A stretch of 32,579 nucleotides of DNA, taken from positions 1-32,579 of the forward strand of contig LJUW01000023.1 of the NCBI GenBank assembly GCA_001304315.1, given 5' to 3'. The notes under the pieces were generated by a model. The model was given only the letters and a program-made list of their open reading frames with translations. It did not search any database and had not been told where the DNA came from. The stretch's first letter is position 1; each line of letters starts with the position of its first letter. Positions 13,779 to 32,253 of this stretch are shown one piece after another. The DNA comes from a candidate division Zixibacteria bacterium SM23_73_2 (GTDB taxonomy: Bacteria; Zixibacteria; MSB-5A5; SM23-73-2). The translations under genes and the position numbers were made by a program.

Positions 13779-14095
13779 TATGCAGTCTGAAATCTCCAAA
13801 AAGTAAAAGGTAAATCGAATGATAGTCTCAATAGAAGCCATGGGTATACTTATAATTGTTCACCTATCTTTGTTCAGCTGACCATCGTAACAGATATGGT
13901 CTGAATGAACTTAATATGTAGTTCTCAAGTGAAACACATCTCAGTTATCCTGTCGTTTTTGTGCATTCGGGAGTTTGATCGCAGATAATATGCTGCTTTA
14001 TCTTATAATGGACATGGGAAGTATGACTGAGAAAGAATCTGTTTCTTTTTTATCGCTCAAGTTTGCGGATCGGATATAATAGTTTTAAGAAAAGT
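13779..14095. other. Intergenic stretch with no recognised feature
   Basis: About 317 bases between the YihY gene and TamB. No open frame with a ribosome-binding site, no RNA gene and no strong hairpin was seen. TATAAT at 14075-14080 has no matching -35 box. Confidence 0.5.
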
Positions 14096-17000
14096 ATGAA
14101 ACGCAAAAAATCTATACGTAAAAGGTTATTTCATTGGCTGGGAGGAGGGATCCTACTTTTTTCTGTGGCAGTTATTTTTTTTCTTTTTTTCCTCACCTTA
14201 AGTCCAGGTGAAAAACTACTAAAAGGAATAGCCGAGTCACGACTTAAGGCTTTGTTAAAACAGGAGGTTCGAATCGGCACTTTGGAAACGAATCTTTTCT
14301 CCCGCATTCAACTGCAAGATGTCGAAATTCATCAGGTGCAATCTGGTGAGAGGATTCCTTTTTTGAGCTTGAATTACGTGAAGTTAAAATACTCTCTTCT
14401 AAACCTTCTTAGTAGAAGGTTTTTGATTAAATCCTTAAACCTGGACAGCTTGAACTTAAATATTTACCGAGACAGTTCGGGAATATTTAATCTTCCTTTA
14501 CAATCCTCATCCACAAAAAGGGATAGTGTATCATCCAAACGTCGATTTGATATTCGATTGAATCAATTTTCGCTTCGTAACTCCTCGATACGATACATAG
14601 ATAATCTGGCTGGTATAGATGGCTCACTTAAAAACCTTGCCATTACTGTTCAAAACAATAGGTATGAGATATATAACTATCGAATATATGTGGATTCTGG
14701 TTTCGTGCAATACCAAGATATTCCTTTATCTGGATCCAACATGAAGCTGAGCGGGTTCTTGAGCCCCCACAAGCTAAGGTTGGATTCGCTCTGGGTGGAT
14801 TTTCCTGGTCTGGAGTTTGATGGAAATGCTGAAGTTGTTATGGACCATGACACAACTATTACTGGTGATTTCTCTATACAAGGTAATTCCAGTTATCTGG
14901 TCGAGGCAGCAGGTGAAATGTTGCCCAAACAGCTTTCTTTAGTACCCGGTGATTTGAATATGGCTTTGCATCTGGAGAGTACTCTAAACCGTCCAGAAGT
15001 AAAAGCTCAACTCCAACTTCTGACATTTGACATTGCCCCCATTCGCATTGAGCACGGGTTGATTAAGGCAAACTGGACACCCGGTTCCATAGATTTGGAA
15101 AATCTGAGACTTCAGCTCTTAGGGGGTGTGATTTCCGGACAGGGGAAACTATCAACAGACAGCCTTTTACCCTACCAACTCTCTTTGTCCGTTGAAGGAG
15201 TTGATCTGGTGAAGATATGGCAATCTCTGTATGATGAAGCTTCTCCATATCAGGGGATATTAAGTGGGGAGCTAAACGCTTCAGGCTCCGCTGGAGATCC
15301 CAAAGACTGGAACATTTATGCAGATTTAAGTTTAAAGCAGCCAAAGTACCGAATGAAATCGCTGCCTTACCTGTCTGCTAAACTCACCGTTGAACAAAGA
15401 ATGGTAAATTTTTTGCTGCAACAGGGGAATTCTCATATCTTAACCAAGGTTCAATTGGACGGGAAAGATCTTGAGGGAGAATTTTCAGCAGAGATACCTC
15501 AGCTTGAGCCTCTGGCTGCATTGGCTAATTTTCCTGAGCTAACTGGAAAGCTGCAAATAGGTGGAGTACTTAGTGGTACTTTGGATTCACCTCAAATTCA
15601 GTCAGAGATAAGAGCCGAAAACATTAAATACCAGAATTTCCCGGTAGACAGCCTGACAGCCCGTGTAATATACCGGGAGGGTCAGGCTTATATTTCGGAA
15701 CTTCATTTTGCTGGTGATCTAAATCCTATTGACACGATTCAACCACCATTCCATTTCACGAATTTTACAGGTGGGATCATGTATCACGGTCATGCCAGCG
15801 GTAAAGTGGATAGCCTTACCGGGGAGGTCACTGTCGACTTAGTTAAACCCAGCTATGCAGATATTCGGTTCGATGAGGGATTTTTAAAGATAGTACTGGA
15901 TGGTCGGAGAATAAGCCTATCATCTCTTCAATTGCGGCGCGATTCCCTTTTGATCAAAGGCAAAGGGGAATACCATATCCCTTCCTCCCAAGGAGGATGT
16001 GAAATAGAACTAATGGAGATTCCCCTCAGTACCTATGATCTCGAAGACAGGATTTCTGATCTTTTTAGAAAGTTAGAGCAGGGCAAATCCCATGTGGATT
16101 ATGTAGGAAAATTAATTGGTACATTTGCTCTATCTGAGACTAAACAGTTTTCGATCAAAATGAGTGGAGATCAAATAAACCTCCAGAAATTCAAGGTTAT
16201 GTTACCAGAGTCTCAAGACATCGGAGGATTGCTCGATTTCGATCTTAATTTCTCCGGAAGTTTTATCAATCCCCAGGCAGAACTTGATTTTCTAATCCAG
16301 AAACCTCGTTATGAACTTTTGGATATGGATTCGGTGAGAGCAAAATTGATTTTCACCGATGACCAATTTCAGTTTCAACCGATAGTAATCTATGATCGAG
16401 GCCAGAATTATTCGGCTTCCGGATTGGTAGAATTAGAAAAAAGAGATGATGGCAGTTATTTTATTTCAGAACATAGCTTGTTAGAGGGGAAGGCCTCAGG
16501 GCAGAATTTTGATCTCAGCTTGCTTTTCCCATTCTTATCCCAAGACATGCAGGTGGCTGGTCGCCTATCCTTCGATTTGAACTGGCACGGGACCTTAGCC
16601 CAACCGCATCCGGCTGGCAAGATAATGGTTCGGGACGCATCGATTCGTTTGGGTCCCAATGCACAAGCTGTTGAGCAGATCGATGTAAGCCTCTCTATGG
16701 AAGATTCGGTTGTGAATGTCGAAAAAGTGAGTGCTGTAATCAAAGACACCCCGTTTCATCTCCAGGCACAAATCATAGCATCACACTGGAGAAGCTTTGA
16801 CCTTCAGACCAGCGCGAGCATTTCGGACTTTGGCAATATAATTGGAAAAGGAACGATTTCCTCTGATTCACTGAACTTCAATGCTCAAATTAAACAGATG
16901 GACCTTACACTCTTACAACCGTTTTTCAACGATTTTAAAAAACTATCTGGAACTTTGAATATGGAAATTGGTCTTACCGGTTCACCTAAAAATCCAAATA

Positions 17001-18187
17001 TTGATGGTCAACTGGAGGTGCGAGAATTGGCTTTGCATCCAGCTATTCTGAATACGCCTTTGGAGAAAGGAGTGATAAAGATCGGCTTCAATCGGAATCA
17101 GGTGAAGGTGGATTCACTTTTTACGACAATGAATGGGGGAACCATCTTTGTTTCAGGAAATCTGACTCATGATAAAGGAGGATTGACTGATGCAAATCTT
17201 GAGGCTAAAATCAATGATGTAAAGATCAATCGTCCTAAGGAATTTACTGCTTTGGTTAAATCCGCTCAACTTAGTTATCGAAAACAGAACAACAACTATC
17301 TTCTGGATGGAGATATCATTCTGTGGGAGTGCAGGATATTGTTCAATTTCAAGCCCCAGTCCATTTTACCTTTTGCCCAAGCAGTCGAAAGACCAAAGCA
17401 AAAGCTGCCTCCCTTTTTACAAAATACCCGGTTGAATATTCGATTGCGGGAGAGCGAAAATATATGGATTGACAACAACCTCGCTCGACTTCGTCTTCAT
17501 ACCGAGTTAAATGCGATAGGTTCACCGGTGCAGCCCAATATGACCGGGCGACTTGTCATAGAGGAAGGTTATCTATTATACCTTGACCGGAAGTTCAAAA
17601 TCAAAAGAGGAGTGGTGGATTTCATCGACCCGGATCGCTTAAACCCGATCATCGACTTAAAAGCTGTGAGTATCGTTAAGACCTATCGTGCAACCGAAAC
17701 AATTTCTTATACTATCGCTCTTGCCATCGAGGGTCCTTTGGATGAGGTAGTGGTAGAGCTGACCTCCGAGCCATCCCTTGACAAACCCAACATCATTTCC
17801 CTGCTTACCATTGGTGCAACCCGGGAACAATTGACCGGCAAGGATACAGAAGGCAGATCCGGTGTTCTGTTGGATCGACTCCAGTCCATTTCCAGTGACA
17901 AGTTAACTGGTTATACCTCAGGGAAGTTAGGGAGCCTTTTGGGTTTGGAAGAGTTCTCAATTGAGGGAAACCTGTTTCGGTTTGATAAATCCTGGGGCCC
18001 ACAACTGCTTGCATCCAAAAGGATCTCCCGTCGAATGACAATGACCTACATTACAACTGTGGGGCACTTCAACGAGAAAAGCATCCGCCTGGATTACGCG
18101 TTATCCAAACACTTTTCGCTGGAGGGAGAAACCGATCAGCGAGGTCGATCAGGAATGAACTTGAAATACAGGTTAAGGTCTAAATGA
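14096..18187 (+). CDS. tamB: TamB-like inter-membrane protein
   Basis: 1363 residues from the ATG at 14096; a TTG at 14063 is in frame but has no ribosome-binding site. A basic N-terminus and one membrane anchor (about 15-40) come first, then the AsmA-like start 'LSPGEKLLKGIAESRLKALL'. Over a thousand residues of repeating beta-strand segments with 'SGSFINPQAELDF' or 'GSPKNPNIDGQLEV'-type spacers follow, forming the expected long hydrophobic groove. The C-terminal DUF490 domain has 'GRLVIEEGYLLYLDRKFKIKRG' in pieces near 1165 and 'TSEPSLDKPNIISLLTIG'. TamB spans the periplasm, works with an Omp85 partner and is implicated in phospholipid transport and outer-membrane protein insertion. Its stop overlaps the following Omp85 ATG by four bases. 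Confidence 0.93.
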   Translation: MKRKKSIRKRLFHWLGGGILLFSVAVIFFLFFLTLSPGEKLLKGIAESRLKALLKQEVRIGTLETNLFSRIQLQDVEIHQVQSGERIPFLSLNYVKLKYSLLNLLSRRFLIKSLNLDSLNLNIYRDSSGIFNLPLQSSSTKRDSVSSKRRFDIRLNQFSLRNSSIRYIDNLAGIDGSLKNLAITVQNNRYEIYNYRIYVDSGFVQYQDIPLSGSNMKLSGFLSPHKLRLDSLWVDFPGLEFDGNAEVVMDHDTTITGDFSIQGNSSYLVEAAGEMLPKQLSLVPGDLNMALHLESTLNRPEVKAQLQLLTFDIAPIRIEHGLIKANWTPGSIDLENLRLQLLGGVISGQGKLSTDSLLPYQLSLSVEGVDLVKIWQSLYDEASPYQGILSGELNASGSAGDPKDWNIYADLSLKQPKYRMKSLPYLSAKLTVEQRMVNFLLQQGNSHILTKVQLDGKDLEGEFSAEIPQLEPLAALANFPELTGKLQIGGVLSGTLDSPQIQSEIRAENIKYQNFPVDSLTARVIYREGQAYISELHFAGDLNPIDTIQPPFHFTNFTGGIMYHGHASGKVDSLTGEVTVDLVKPSYADIRFDEGFLKIVLDGRRISLSSLQLRRDSLLIKGKGEYHIPSSQGGCEIELMEIPLSTYDLEDRISDLFRKLEQGKSHVDYVGKLIGTFALSETKQFSIKMSGDQINLQKFKVMLPESQDIGGLLDFDLNFSGSFINPQAELDFLIQKPRYELLDMDSVRAKLIFTDDQFQFQPIVIYDRGQNYSASGLVELEKRDDGSYFISEHSLLEGKASGQNFDLSLLFPFLSQDMQVAGRLSFDLNWHGTLAQPHPAGKIMVRDASIRLGPNAQAVEQIDVSLSMEDSVVNVEKVSAVIKDTPFHLQAQIIASHWRSFDLQTSASISDFGNIIGKGTISSDSLNFNAQIKQMDLTLLQPFFNDFKKLSGTLNMEIGLTGSPKNPNIDGQLEVRELALHPAILNTPLEKGVIKIGFNRNQVKVDSLFTTMNGGTIFVSGNLTHDKGGLTDANLEAKINDVKINRPKEFTALVKSAQLSYRKQNNNYLLDGDIILWECRILFNFKPQSILPFAQAVERPKQKLPPFLQNTRLNIRLRESENIWIDNNLARLRLHTELNAIGSPVQPNMTGRLVIEEGYLLYLDRKFKIKRGVVDFIDPDRLNPIIDLKAVSIVKTYRATETISYTIALAIEGPLDEVVVELTSEPSLDKPNIISLLTIGATREQLTGKDTEGRSGVLLDRLQSISSDKLTGYTSGKLGSLLGLEEFSIEGNLFRFDKSWGPQLLASKRISRRMTMTYITTVGHFNEKSIRLDYALSKHFSLEGETDQRGRSGMNLKYRLRSK

Positions 18188-19977
18188 TGAATCTGAAATC
18201 TATTTTTTGTTTAACTTTTATTTCTTTTTTTCTGTTATCAAACATCCAGGCCAGAGAACCTTCTTCTAAACTCAAGGTCAAATCAGTTGCCTTTGAAGGG
18301 AACCAGGCATTTAGCCAGCAAAGGCTTAGGCGAGTGATGCTTACCCGTTCCTCAAAGTTTCTATCCCCTTCCTATTACTACCCTCAGATTTTCGAGGATG
18401 ATCTTGAAAACCTTCTTTTGTTCTACCAGCAAAATGGCTACCTGGATGCGCAAATTTTAGGAACTCAGGTGAGCATAGATTCAATTGATAATGAAGTTTA
18501 TATACATATTAAATTATCAGAAGGAGAATTGACCAGAGTTGAGGGTGTAGCTGTATTTGGCAATCTTGTATTTGGTGATAGCCTGCTCCTTCAGAAAATA
18601 AAAATCAGACCGACAGACCCATTCATCCAGAAAAAAATTGATGATGCAATTTTATCTTTTCTGACACTCTATGCCAATAATGGCTACCTGGATGCTGAGG
18701 TCAAGCCAGATATTCGGATCAACCCCGAAACTCATCGAGCCTTGATCGATTTTTTAATCGATGAAAAAAATCAATATACTATCGGTGAGATACATCTGCA
18801 AGGTCTGAAGAAATGCAGGCCGGGGATAATAAAAAGAGAACTGCTTTTCAAAAAGGGAGAAGTGATAAAATACACCCGCCTTTTGGAATCGCAACGACGC
18901 CTGTATCTCAGCGGGCTGTTTCAAAGTGTATTTATCCGTCCCCAACCTGCAGCTTTTGGTGACTCTACAAAAAAGGACATTCTCATTGAGCTTCTGGAAA
19001 ATGAGCCCTTTGAGTTTAACCTTGCGGTTGGATACGGATCCGTGGAAAAAGGCCGAGCAAGGATCGAGGCTTTCAACACCAACCTGGCTGGAACTGCCCG
19101 TAAAGTTGGACTTTCCACCAAAATAAGCTTTGTGAGCCGCGGCGTAGAAGCCTCATTCACCGAACCCTGGACATTCGGTTTTCGCTGGCGTACCGATGTC
19201 AATCTTCTTTTTGAATATCTGGAAGAACCAGGTTTTGACCTTAATCGAAAAGGCGGACGTCTGGTAATTGGGAGAACATTTGGGAAGCGTTCCACCGCTT
19301 CTATAACCTATCGATATGAAGATGCAAAGTTAAGTAAGATACAGGTCGCCACCATTCCAGAGGAACTTAAAACTAATCTGCGAACCCTAACCCTTTCGTT
19401 TATCTATGATACACGGGACAATTTATTTAACTCCACCCAGGGTTTTTATTTTGAATGGAATAACGAACTCGCAGGCTCGTTTTTGAGAGGAACGGATACC
19501 TTTATGCGTCTGCAAGGGCGATTTAAATACTTTCATCCCTTGAAAAGATCCACGATTATTGCAAGTGCTCTTGAAATCGGATGGATGGATTTCTTCGGTA
19601 CTTCCAGGGACATTCCGCTAAATGAAAGATTTTATGCTGGTGGTCCCAATTCACTGAGAGGATTTGAATATCAACTTGTGGGTCCCCTGGATGCCAAAGA
19701 GATACCAATTGGTGGGAGATTAAAGGCCGTATGGAATCTAATTGAGATTCGCCAGTCAATTTACAAAATAATCGGCATGGTAGTCTTCGCAGATATCGGT
19801 AACGTATGGTCTGAGCCGCGAGAATTTCATTTTCGTGATTTTCGGACTTCAGCTGGCTTTGGACTTCGTGTAAACACGCCCATCGGAATCTTACGAGCCG
19901 ATTACGGGATCAATCTGAAACCAAGAAATGGTGAGTCACCAGGTCAATTGATATTTAACATGGGACAGACATTTTAG
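18184..19977 (+). CDS. tamA: Omp85 family outer-membrane assembly protein (TamA/BamA-like)
   Basis: 597 residues. A signal peptide (1-23, 'IQA-RE') is followed by about three POTRA domains (25-290). Each has the 'G.Y.DA' type turn: 'QQNGYLDAQI' and 'ANNGYLDAEV'. A 16-strand-type barrel makes up the rest. The lid-loop signature is LRGF (491-494) within 'FYAGGPNSLRGFEY'. The last residues are 'NMGQTF', ending in phenylalanine, the usual signal of barrel proteins. Three POTRAs and linkage to tamB favour TamA over BamA, which normally has five. It starts inside the tamB stop codon, so the two are translationally coupled. A GGTTAGC/GCTAACC hairpin begins at the last base of its stop codon. Confidence 0.92.
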   Translation: MMNLKSIFCLTFISFFLLSNIQAREPSSKLKVKSVAFEGNQAFSQQRLRRVMLTRSSKFLSPSYYYPQIFEDDLENLLLFYQQNGYLDAQILGTQVSIDSIDNEVYIHIKLSEGELTRVEGVAVFGNLVFGDSLLLQKIKIRPTDPFIQKKIDDAILSFLTLYANNGYLDAEVKPDIRINPETHRALIDFLIDEKNQYTIGEIHLQGLKKCRPGIIKRELLFKKGEVIKYTRLLESQRRLYLSGLFQSVFIRPQPAAFGDSTKKDILIELLENEPFEFNLAVGYGSVEKGRARIEAFNTNLAGTARKVGLSTKISFVSRGVEASFTEPWTFGFRWRTDVNLLFEYLEEPGFDLNRKGGRLVIGRTFGKRSTASITYRYEDAKLSKIQVATIPEELKTNLRTLTLSFIYDTRDNLFNSTQGFYFEWNNELAGSFLRGTDTFMRLQGRFKYFHPLKRSTIIASALEIGWMDFFGTSRDIPLNERFYAGGPNSLRGFEYQLVGPLDAKEIPIGGRLKAVWNLIEIRQSIYKIIGMVVFADIGNVWSEPREFHFRDFRTSAGFGLRVNTPIGILRADYGINLKPRNGESPGQLIFNMGQTF

Positions 19978-19997
19978 GTTAGCTGACTTGGCTAACC
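19977..19997. repeat. Hairpin after the Omp85 gene, loop TGACTTG
   Basis: GGTTAGC (19977-19983), loop TGACTTG, GCTAACC (19991-19997). There is no following T-run, so it may be an RNA end or processing signal rather than a terminator. The loop shares CTTG with hairpins at 21069 and 21273. Confidence 0.6.
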
Positions 19998-20040: not shown

Positions 20041-21057
20041 ATGGCACTTCGTCTAATAGAAGCGGTTTTACCAAAGCAATATGAACATAAGGTTCAGGAG
20101 ATATTGAAAGATCACAAGGTACTGGGCATCTGGCAACAAGGATTGTCAGAGGAAAAGGTCTTGGTAAGGGTGCTTTTGCCCACTGTGGAGACCGAGGCGA
20201 TTTTAGACCTTTTGAAAAAGCATTATTCCCATTTAGATGGTTTCAGAGTAATGCTGCTCTCCGTTGAAGCCTCCCTTCCAAGACCGGATGAACCTGAGAA
20301 AAAAACAGAAAAAGAAAAACCCAAGGAAAAACCAACCCCTCAAGCCAAGGTAAATAGAAAGAGCCGCCAGGAGATTTATACAGATATAAACCAGAGCTCC
20401 AAGCTCTCCACAGTCTATCTTGTAATGGTAATTCTCTCCACCATCGTAGCTGCGCTTGGGATTTTGCTGAATAACATCTTCGCCATAATAGGGGCTATGG
20501 TCATTGCCCCTCTTTTAGGACCCAACGTTGCCCTATCCCTTGCTACCACCTTAGGTGACATAGATCTGGCAAAAAGAGCTTTGAAAGCCAATCTATCAGG
20601 GATTTTCACTGCTCTTTTCATCTCGATTATAATAGGAACTATTTTTACAGTCAGTCCGGACATACATGTTTTAGCATTCAGGACCAAAACAGGTTTGGGA
20701 GATGTTGTTTTAGCCTTAGCATCTGGAAGTGCAGGAGCATTAGCCTTCACTACTGGCATTTCAACTGCTTTAGTTGGCGTGATGGTAGCAGTGGCTCTGC
20801 TTCCGCCTCTGGTGACATTCGGATTGCTTTTAGGATCCGGTCACTTCCAGATGGCATTGGGTGCGATGCTACTTCTTCTCATCAACCTGATTTGCATCAA
20901 CCTGGCTGGAGTAACCACCTTTTTAGCGCAGGGCATCCGCCCCATAACCTGGTGGGAGGCAGACCGGGCAAAAAAAGCAACCCGGGATGCCATAATCATA
21001 TGGGGCGTCCTGTTGTTAGCTCTTATCATCGTGATTCTTCTAACCCAGAGAGGTTAA
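20041..21057 (+). CDS. DUF389 (TIGR00341-type) integral membrane protein
   Basis: 338 residues. A soluble N-terminal part (1-80) is followed by a Lys/Glu/Pro-rich linker (about 81-112). Six or so membrane helices include the family motif 'NNIFAIIGAMVIAPLLGPNVALSLA' (about 142-166), 'ALASGSAGALAFTTGIS' and 'ALLPPLVTFGLLLG'. The function of DUF389 proteins is unknown; a transporter is plausible. The ATG follows GGAGGACTAA, a strong site. It lies 63 bases after the Omp85 gene on the same strand and may be the last gene of that transcript, ending at the hairpin cluster. Confidence 0.88.
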   Translation: MALRLIEAVLPKQYEHKVQEILKDHKVLGIWQQGLSEEKVLVRVLLPTVETEAILDLLKKHYSHLDGFRVMLLSVEASLPRPDEPEKKTEKEKPKEKPTPQAKVNRKSRQEIYTDINQSSKLSTVYLVMVILSTIVAALGILLNNIFAIIGAMVIAPLLGPNVALSLATTLGDIDLAKRALKANLSGIFTALFISIIIGTIFTVSPDIHVLAFRTKTGLGDVVLALASGSAGALAFTTGISTALVGVMVAVALLPPLVTFGLLLGSGHFQMALGAMLLLLINLICINLAGVTTFLAQGIRPITWWEADRAKKATRDAIIIWGVLLLALIIVILLTQRG

Positions 21058-21487
21058 AAAAAACGTAGGGGAGACCCTTGTGGTCTCCCGCTGGTAGTTG
21101 GGTTGGGAAATAATCATTATATACCTTGAGAGCAATTGTATCTTAATAACTCATAGAGAAATAAAAATGTAGAGGAGATCTTCAGGTCTCCATTTAGGGA
21201 GGTGAAAGGAGATAAGATATAAATTATCCACGAGCAAGACTCGTGGTCCATCTATCTAAATTATTTGCGATAGCTCACCAGTCTTGCTGGTGAGCCTTTC
21301 TTAAATGTAGGGGAGACCCTTGTGGTCTCCCTTTTGGATTCGGGAGGGGATCCCGCAAAAACGGGATTTCGCTTGGCTCAACAAGCTCCTCCCCTACGGA
21401 GTATTTGGAATTTTAGAACAATTGCAAAAAAGGTGCAGGAAATTCAACTCCTGAATCTTTCAAACAGATTAAAGCAATACTTATTTT
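21058..21487. repeat. Cluster of small hairpin repeats between convergent DUF389 and lon genes
   Basis: At least six stem-loops lie in 430 non-coding bases. They are GGGAGACC-CTTGT-GGTCTCCC (21069-21089), GGAGATC-TTCA-GGTCTCC (21174-21191) and CCACGAG-CAAGA-CTCGTGG (21228-21246). Next come GCTCACCAG-TCTTG-CTGGTGAGC (21273-21295, followed by CTTTCTT) and a second exact GGGAGACC-CTTGT-GGTCTCCC (21311-21331, followed by TTTT). The sixth is a branched element at 21341-21396. The two T-followed stems could terminate the DUF389 transcript. A reading frame across 21322-21519 is a by-product with no ribosome-binding site. Confidence 0.9.
21341..21396. repeat. Branched (three-way) repeat element, copy A
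   Basis: The outer stem is GGGAGG at the left and CCTCCC at the right. Inside are TCCCG-CAAAAA-CGGGA and GCTTG-GCTCAA-CAAGC. It shares GGGAGGGGA, GGGATTTCG, CTCAACAAGC and CTCCCCT with copy B at 26271-26328, although the inner stem sequence differs. Confidence 0.75.
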
Positions 21488-23890
21488 TTATTTTTTTACT
21501 TTACTTCTTCTCTTTTTAATTTTCTTCTTACTATCCAGAGCCAATCCCAAAACCTCATCCACAGTATCCACGAAAACGAATTTTACGTGATCCTTTATCT
21601 CCTGGGGAATCTCCTCCAGATCCTTTTGGTTGTGTCTGGACAAAATCACCGTTTTAATACCGGCACGATAAGCAGCTAAGGACTTCTCCTTTAACCCACC
21701 GATGGGCATGACCAGCCCTCTTAAGGTGATCTCGCCTGACATAGCCAGCCTGGGTTTTACCGGTCGCTCGGTCAGAAGGGAGGCGATTGCCGTTGCCATG
21801 GTAATTCCGGCTGAGGGACCGTCCTTGGGAGTACCTCCTGCAGGAACGTGGACATGAATATCGAATTTCTCGTAGAATCTATCCGATATTCCCAGCTTTT
21901 TGCTTGTGGATCTGACATAGGATAAAGCGGTCTGGGCAGATTCCCTCATCACTTCTCCCAGATGGCCGGTTAAGGTCAAGGATTTTTTACCCGGCATCTT
22001 GGTCGCCTCAACGAAGATCAGCTCCCCGCCGTAAGAGGTCCAGGCTAAACCGGGAACAACCCCCACCTTTGAGGTTCTCTCCACCGCCTCCTGAAAGAAT
22101 TTTATCGGACCCAAAAACTTCTGTAAGTTGTCAGGAGTTATCTCGATCTTTTTTTTCTCACCGGAAGCCACCATCTTAGCCACCTTCCTGCAAACCGTGG
22201 CGATTTCCCGGTCAAGGTTTCTCAATCCTGATTCCCTGGTATAATCATTGATGATCTTCTTAATCGCTTCGTCGGAGAAGGTCAGGTTTTTTGGTTTCAA
22301 CCCATGATTGTCCAGTTCCTTGGGTATAAGAAACATCTTGGCTATCTCCAGCTTCTCCAGATCAGTGTAACCCGGAATCTCGATCACCTCCATCCTGTCC
22401 TGAAGAACCGGTGGAATGGGATCCAAAAGATTTGCGGTGGTGATGAACATAACCTTGGAGAGATCAAAGGGAACGTCCAGATAGTGGTCGGAGAAGCTGT
22501 GGTTCTGCTCCGGATCCAAAACCTCCAACAAAGCTGCTGCTGGATCACCCCTGAAATCCTTTCCCACTTTGTCAACCTCATCCAGCATAAAAACAGGATT
22601 GTTGGACCCGGCTCTTTTTATCCCCTGGATTATTCTTCCGGGAAGGGATCCGATGTAGGTTCTTCGGTGACCCCTGATCTCCGCCTCGTCGTGCATCCCG
22701 CCTAAAGATATTCTCTGGAATTTTCTACCCAAGGCCCTGGCGATGGACATCCCCAGAGAGGTCTTTCCCACACCCGGAGGTCCGACAAAGCACAGGATGG
22801 GGCCCTTGAGATCGGATTTCAGCTTCCTAACCGCCAGATATTCCAAAATCCTCTCCTTGACCCTTTCCAGATCATAGTGATCCTCATCCAGAACCCTTCT
22901 GGCCTCCTTTATATTCAACCTGTCCTGGGTGGATTTGCTCCAGGGCAGCTCCACCAGCCAATCCAGATAAGTCCTGGAAACGGTATACTCGGCTGCAGCT
23001 GGATTCATCATCGCCAGCCGGTCCAGCTCCTTCTCAGCTGCTTCTTTGGCTTCCTTGGGAAGTTTTGCCGCATATATCTTTTTTTTGAACTCCTCCACCT
23101 CAGCAGCTTTCTGATCCTTCTCCCCTAATTCTTTCTGTATAGCCTTAAGCTGTTCCCTTAGGATAAACTCCTTCTGCATCTTTCCCATCTCAGCCGATGC
23201 CTTAGACTGTATCTTTCGGGAAAGCTCCAATACCTCAACCTCCTTGGCAATAAGTCGGGTAAGCTTTTCCAATCTCTGCTTAACATCGAAAGTCTCCAAG
23301 ATATGCTGCTTCTGATTTAAATTTATGTTGAGGTTGGAGGCGATCAAGTCGGCTAACTTACCCGGGTCCTCGGTATTTAAAGCTGATACCTGGAGCTCCT
23401 CCGGAAGATAAGGTGCCAGGTTAATCACCTTTTTAAGCTGTTCCAGGATGTTCCGGACCAGAGCTTCTATTTCGACGTCCTTTCTTTCCATCTCCTCAAC
23501 TATTTCGATTTTGGCCTGAAGATGAGGTTGGGATTTCAATGCCTTTTTGATCTTGATCCTGGCAAGACCCTGAACCAAAAATCTTACGCTTCCATCCGGA
23601 AATCTCAGCATCTTTATGATGGTAGCTGCTGTTCCAACCTGATAGATATCCTCAAAAACAACGTTTTCCTTCTCCGGATCCTTCTGGGCAAAAAGCCCTA
23701 TGATCTTGCCTCCAACCAAAGCCTCATCGATGAGCTTGGCATAACGCTGGTCCGAGATCATCAAAGGCATAATCAGGTACGGATATACCACCACGCCTTT
23801 CAAAGGTAGAATGGAAAGCTCCTCCTGTATCCTTTTGATCTCCTCTTTGGTTATTTTCTCGTCGGTTTTGATCAGGTTATCCTTTTTCAT
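21488..23890 (-). CDS. lon: ATP-dependent protease Lon (LonA type)
   Basis: 800 residues, the usual size. The N-terminal substrate-binding domain (about 30-220, '[18 protein letters not shown]') leads to a coiled region and an AAA+ module with Walker [10 protein letters not shown] (Lys376) and Walker B '[11 protein letters not shown]'. The C-terminal serine-lysine protease domain has catalytic Ser693 in DGPSAG and the partner Lys in '[16 protein letters not shown]'. It degrades misfolded and regulatory proteins in the cytosol. Its ATG overlaps the hsp20 stop (ATGA), so the two are coupled. It is last in the HAD, ychF, hsp20, lon operon. The C-terminus ends in a lysine/arginine-rich tail after the protease fold. 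Confidence 0.97.
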
Positions 23891-31974: not shown

Positions 31975-32253
31975 CAGACTTAACCTTCTCTACTAAAAGC
32001 CCTCCGGATCTTGCCGGGGGGCTTTTTGTTTTTTTCGCAAGAGGTTCTAAATTCGGCGAATAAAATTCGCCTTGAAAGACTAAAAGCCCCGTCTTCTCCT
32101 CTGGATTAGATTGACATTTGGCAACGACCCTTCCTGTTTTAGAAATCTTTTAATTTCTCGTACAGAAGATCAAATCCCCCATTTCCCGGTTTTTTCTTTG
32201 ATTTTCATGCTCATAAAAAATCCCGTAAAGCCGATAAAGAAAGTAAATAAACC
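31975..32253. other. Intergenic region with terminator and a GGCGAAT/ATTCGCC hairpin
   Basis: Besides the terminator, GGCGAAT-AAA-ATTCGCC forms a perfect seven-base stem at about 32055-32071. The rest, up to the cold-shock promoter, shows no gene or RNA that I recognise. Confidence 0.6.
31995..32036 (+). terminator. Rho-independent terminator
   Basis: GCCCTCCGG, loop ATCTTG, CCGGGGGGC, flanked by AAAA before and TTTTTGTTTTTTT after. It is the clearest terminator in the window and lies 21 bases after the normal end of the damaged sorting domain. The loop again contains CTTG. Confidence 0.92.

Follow-up and report, generated by a model that had tools for sequence, protein, structure and literature searches.

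Between the converging genes for a DUF389 membrane protein and the Lon protease, the candidate division Zixibacteria bacterium SM23_73_2 carries a gap of 430 bp with several hairpins that are alike in their loops, which raises the question of what kind of sequence is maintained there, and what reads it. The gap lies in the 32,579-nucleotide stretch of contig LJUW01000023.1 analyzed here (the window). A sequence-only reading had described six stems with unrelated arms and a shared CTTG/CAAG loop core, and had proposed selection on RNA structure, for instance through a CUUG loop bound by a protein or favoured in termination. We found that the gap is packed with REP and REPIN hairpins (Table 1), and it very probably represents a cluster of such miniature mobile elements, belonging to at least two families, that accumulated between the two convergent genes. 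The class of element is known, whereas its members here are new and come from a little-studied genome.

Table 1. Genes and repeat units at the DUF389-lon locus (positions in the window)
Feature	Position	Strand	Details
DUF389 membrane protein gene	20041..21057	+	upstream neighbour of the array
Family A REP	21065..21089	+	foot GTAG 21065-21068, stem GGGAGACC, loop CTTGT, stem GGTCTCCC
Degenerate GTAG-tagged REP	21169..21192	+	GTAG-AGGAGATC-TTCA-GGTCTCC; weak fold
Family B REP	21228..21256	-	foot GATAG 21256-21252, 5-nt spacer, stem CCACGAG, loop TCTTG, stem CTCGTGG
Family B REP	21269..21295	+	foot GATAG 21269-21273, stem, loop TCTTG
Family A REP, REPIN left half	21307..21331	+	GTAG foot, CTTGT loop
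REPIN right half (inverted family A REP)	21342..21397	-	stem GGGAGG.., foot CTAC (GTAG on the minus strand) 21394-21397
Lon protease gene	21488..23890	-	convergent neighbour of the array

The hairpins and their CTTG/CAAG-core loops were confirmed at the positions first described: 21069-21089 and 21311-21331 (CTTGT), 21228-21246 (CAAGA) and 21273-21295 (TCTTG). A weaker stem, with a TTCA-type loop, lies at 21174-21191, and a branched one, with GCTTG/CAAGC inside it, at 21342-21393. Compared with shuffled sequences, the single-strand folds of the main stems have z-scores of -3.9, -4.8 and -5.5, and a 91-nt composite one of -4.8, while the unit at 21169-21192 folds weakly (z of -1.6). Not all the arms are unrelated, however: 21069-21089 and 21311-21331 have identical 8-bp stems (GGGAGACC-CTTGT-GGTCTCCC) and are one repeat. 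The two family B REPs form a head-to-head pair, and the right half of the REPIN has in its loop an extra structured insert of ~31 nt (stems 21350-21367 and 21371-21386). On contig C48, a close relative of the degenerate REP adjoins a copy of family A. Within the window we found no Rfam match above gathering score and no tRNA, and nothing similar to the array was found in plasmid DNA.

The sequence-only reading also expected CTTG to be commoner than chance among all stems of at least 7 bp. We counted CTTG/CAAG loops among intergenic stems of this size in two samples of the genome, with shuffled sequence as control. In a 357-kb sample, partly chosen by similarity to the array region, they occur in 18 of 187 stems against 0.75 in shuffles. 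In a 286-kb sample chosen regardless of array matches, from which contig C9, a known carrier of family B, was excluded, there are none among 69 hairpins, against 0.35 in shuffles. Intergenic stems overall are about three to five times commoner than in shuffles. A genome-wide preference for CTTG was therefore rejected: because the excess vanishes in unselected contigs, it belongs to particular repeat families, the REPs, and not to hairpins generally. A literature search on DNA-hairpin stability as a reason for CTTG returned no directly relevant paper.

Two further stems had been thought to share the core of the array, and neither belongs to it; their resemblance is probably coincidental. The one at 31995, with a GC-rich stem, an ATCTTG loop and a T-run 3' of a gene end, is, judging from its sequence, an ordinary terminator. 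The other, at 19977-19997 (GGTTAGC-TGACTTG-GCTAACC), is a perfect 7-bp stem over the stop codon of an Omp85 gene and matches none of the families. That gene lies in a segment (14063-19977) coding for a TamB/AsmA-like protein followed by an Omp85/POTRA protein, an arrangement that resembles a TAM-type pair.

Family A consists of a GTAG foot, an 8-bp stem and a CTTGT loop, and GTAG precedes every CTTGT stem. Searching the genome with the pattern GTAGGGG-N4-CCTTGTGG-N4-CCC and three mismatches allowed, we obtained 22 matches as opposed to three with the reversed control; the genome has about 20 copies. The stems occur in several variants with complementary partners (GGGAGACC, GGGAGCCC, GGGAGTCC, GGAAGACC, GGGAGGGG and GGGCGGGG), a collection that required pairing and so is evidence for constancy of the loop, not for pairing. 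In a scan of named genomes, family A was present in at least 119 stretches (named contigs) from about ten or more phyla, including Chloroflexota, Acidobacteria, Gammaproteobacteria, Deltaproteobacteria, Zixibacteria, Gemmatimonadota, Latescibacterota, Planctomycetota, Bacteroidota, Bacillota and Armatimonadetes, among others. The two stem positions left open by the pattern are paired in 137 and 135 of 138 cases among the matches listed, wobble included. A frequent arrangement is the inverted doublet GTAG-stem-CTTGT-stem ... stem-ACAAG-stem-CTAC, that is, a REPIN. The composite of the window, loop insert included, recurs with 75-86% identity on contigs C3, C99, C101 and C36, with a partial match on C6, and a relative (84% over 86 bp), likewise a family A REPIN, flanks the 3' end of lon in the congener G001. 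The insert itself is kept in several copies. A literature search with the family A 25-mer gave no match.

Family B consists of GATAG, a stem of 7-8 bp and a TCTTG loop, its foot being invariable and unlike the consensus GTAG. A pattern free of stem sequence, ATAG-N(4-20)-GTCTTGC, retrieves the set with constant spacing. The stricter pattern GATAG-N6-AGTCTTGCT has seven matches in this genome (G000), five in G001 and one in G006, of which the G006 match and one in G001 (contig C65) are not convincing hairpins; the remaining 130 genomes of the class lack a match, and its reversed control has none in any genome. Judged by these matches, family B is restricted to this genus within the class searched, with a copy number of about eight. 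We aligned 11 copies, ten found through foot and loop rather than stem and one (G001_C64b) added by eye. In this alignment 93.2% of stem cells are paired, a percentage favoured by leaving out the G006 copy on C15, the G001 copy on C65 and the second, broken minus-strand copy of G001_C64; five of the eight pairs show double changes, and foot and loop are fixed. The covariation score was reached by none of 500 shuffles, and slid registers are far worse. The feet point inward in the G000 pairs on C54, C9 and C105; they point outward in a GATAG...CTATC doublet on C64 of G001 (L269), which is duplicated in tandem, ~148 bp apart.

A third family, C, has the form GGAG-TGCNNNAA-CTTG-TTNNNGCA; with as many as three mismatches allowed, it was matched 32 times in G000 (reversed control, three) and 47 times in G001 (reversed control, zero). 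Its loop alternates between CTTG and TTTA, as in the copies C3:13191-13214 and C101:11938-11961 (G000/G001). Among 73 copies, the tetraloop is CTTG in 45, TTTA in 20, TTTG in three, CTTA in one and something else in four; a few poor matches were dropped by eye, and since the copies share descent, the numbers do not count independent events. Even though the search favoured CTTG, TTTA, which requires two changes, is much more frequent than TTTG and CTTA, which require one, as if the outer loop bases were paired.

Concerning possible transposases, the 2.3-Mb genome has six Y1_Tnp matches plus a gene on C14 resembling TnpAREP subclass 2.4, hence seven RAYT-like genes (contigs C105, C113, C24, C38, C77, C12 and C14), most of them flanked by a hairpin family of their own. 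Family B adjoins the gene on C105, which has two family B hairpins directly upstream, on the 5' side only. Its product carries HFH and Y motifs, scores 120.5 bits against NCBIfam NF047646 (cut-off 80) and matches PDB 4er8, a TnpArep. This link is based on one locus, and by a rough estimate the probability that a RAYT would lie by chance within 150 bp of some family B locus is ~0.006. In G001, which has family B REPs, nothing close to the C105 RAYT was found (33% identity at best). Nor did we find a clean empty site on comparing the C105 and C9 regions with G001: both sides of the former align (about 1378 and 2028 of the query) with ~8 kb of other DNA between them, and the latter has no counterpart.

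No RAYT with exact family A REPs was found in this genome, whose assembly is 86% complete. In profile screens of other genomes, a family A REP lies in frame inside a RAYT ORF (L215), between the HUH and Y motifs, and another lies at the same place in a broken RAYT copy (L121). Other genes of the subclass 2.4 type in the class have different REPs in frame, and the gene on C14 (L236) has an in-frame, double-foot GTAG...CTAC palindrome with a TGCA centre, not CTTGT. The GTAG hairpins that flank the RAYTs on C113 and C77 have other sequences, for example GTCGAGAT-TCCA-ATCTCGAC for the former and, for the latter, units with GTAG-GGG feet and TCA/CTTAA loops. The genes on C14 and C77 are candidate partners of family A. 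Hairpins with a GGAG tag and a TTTA loop flank the C12 RAYT, a possible partner of family C. In related genomes, too, most RAYTs are flanked by tagged hairpins, whose loops are diverse.

These features can be compared with systems described elsewhere. The literature on GTAG REPs and REPINs/BIMEs describes REPs as palindromes of 20-40 nt with a GTAG foot, arranged in inverted doublets, intergenic and of several families per genome, and RAYT genes as having REPs on their flanks (Di Nocera 2013, PMC3733652; Nunvar 2010, PMC2817692; PMC3116915). Both families of the array are short palindromes in many copies (few in the case of B), mostly intergenic. Variants of the foot are known, that of A being exactly GTAG and that of B GATAG. 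Inverted pairs occur as GTAG...CTAC composites in G000 and as the outward doublet in G001, and at C105 a RAYT with HFH and Y motifs has two family B REPs on its 5' side, as in a REPtron. Differences are the GATAG foot and 5-nt loop of family B, the structured loop insert in the second REP of the window REPIN, and the CTTG core, which is absent from the text, figures aside, of one of these papers (PMC3733652). TnpAREP genes of subclass 2.4 are known to contain REPs in frame within their own gene (Quentin 2018, PMC6006769), as L215 and the similar genes with other REPs do; GGG at the stem base is a further likeness. The C14 REP, by contrast, is double-footed with a TGCA centre, and the subclass is assigned here by resemblance and not with the profiles of that study.

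Closest to the behaviour of the stems and loops are the group 3 TnpAREP/REP systems of Stenotrophomonas and Marinomonas. There the REPs are perfect palindromes in which the loop bases are decisive and the stem must be perfect, pairing counting for more than sequence: mismatches hurt, and most stem swaps are tolerated with modest effects (PMC8266576). The Marinomonas TTTA loop requires T12, T13 and A15, and T12 may pair with A15 (PMC8266576), which recalls the TTTA variant of family C. The assays consulted did not include the loops CTTGT and TCTTG, and the comparison of the RAYTs found here with group 3 is one of analogy.

Could the array be explained otherwise? If the stems had been selected to act in the RNA of DUF389 and lon, either as terminators or by offering a CUUG loop to a protein, their position between convergent genes would be natural, and the segment 19900-21600 indeed has nine terminator-like sites against 2.0 in shuffles, including the stems at 21273 (+), 21089 (-) and 21246 (-); some of the stems fit a terminator loosely. 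However, units tagged with GTAG or GATAG are found again, in either orientation, at loci unrelated to this one, several of them inside predicted ORFs (most copies being intergenic), CTTG is missing from intergenic stems sampled regardless of REP content (0/69), no Rfam family matches, and the tags, inverted doublets and RAYT links would be left unexplained; we consider RNA elements very unlikely. The idea that a constant loop on differing stems reflects selection on RNA structure is thus retained for the folded form and abandoned for RNA as the form selected. Similarly, a loop-binding protein is the best explanation of the CTTG loop, while a general preference in termination is not supported. 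Some units may nevertheless serve secondarily as terminators of the flanking genes.

We see equally little room for neutral or host-domesticated palindromes that do without a transposase. Gyrase, IHF and nucleoid proteins are candidate host palindrome-binding proteins, and family B does persist in G001 in the absence of a close C105 homologue. REPs/BIMEs are described as binding sites for several proteins (PMC2817692). Yet family B adjoins a RAYT, family A lies in frame in RAYT genes and is spread across many phyla, which points to a mobile origin. As for random stems in an intergenic region, chance probably accounts for 19977 and 31995, but for the main stems it is already refuted by fold z-scores of -3.9 to -5.5 and by copies that are repeated, tagged and covarying, leaving it a negligible probability.

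A RAYT/TnpAREP transposase that acts on single-stranded DNA is the most likely reader of the loops of these REP/REPIN elements. Wherever the DNA becomes single-stranded, as it may on the lagging-strand template, each unit, a 5' tag (GTAG or GATAG) and a short hairpin, would be exposed to a RAYT/TnpAREP-type HUH tyrosine transposase, which would bind the hairpin through loop and tag, then cleave and rejoin it so that the unit spreads. Because such an enzyme would read loop and tag and need the stem merely paired, compensatory changes could accumulate in the stem around a fixed loop. By analogy, a constant loop on variable paired stems is the expected trace of loop-based TnpAREP recognition, and we infer that the RAYTs here move the REPs of the array in this way, with the loop as binding determinant.

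Since the loops at other RAYTs are diverse, CTTG is not universal, and its sharing among families A, B and C may therefore be a coincidence. A possible but rather doubtful alternative is that at least three REP families of this genus (feet GTAG, GATAG and GGAG) have the core in common because their different RAYTs all read one loop geometry, TT closed by a swappable C-G or T-A pair. If this were true, the natural copies would amount to a ready-made selection experiment on the bases that a RAYT reads. With the present data, the range of the REP type GTAG-GGGNGNCC-CTTGT grows to about ten or more phyla of bacteria, and a genus-level family, B, is described together with its likely transposase. 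The little biochemistry that exists on target recognition by TnpAREP is consistent with the covarying stems and constant loops found here, which could extend it.
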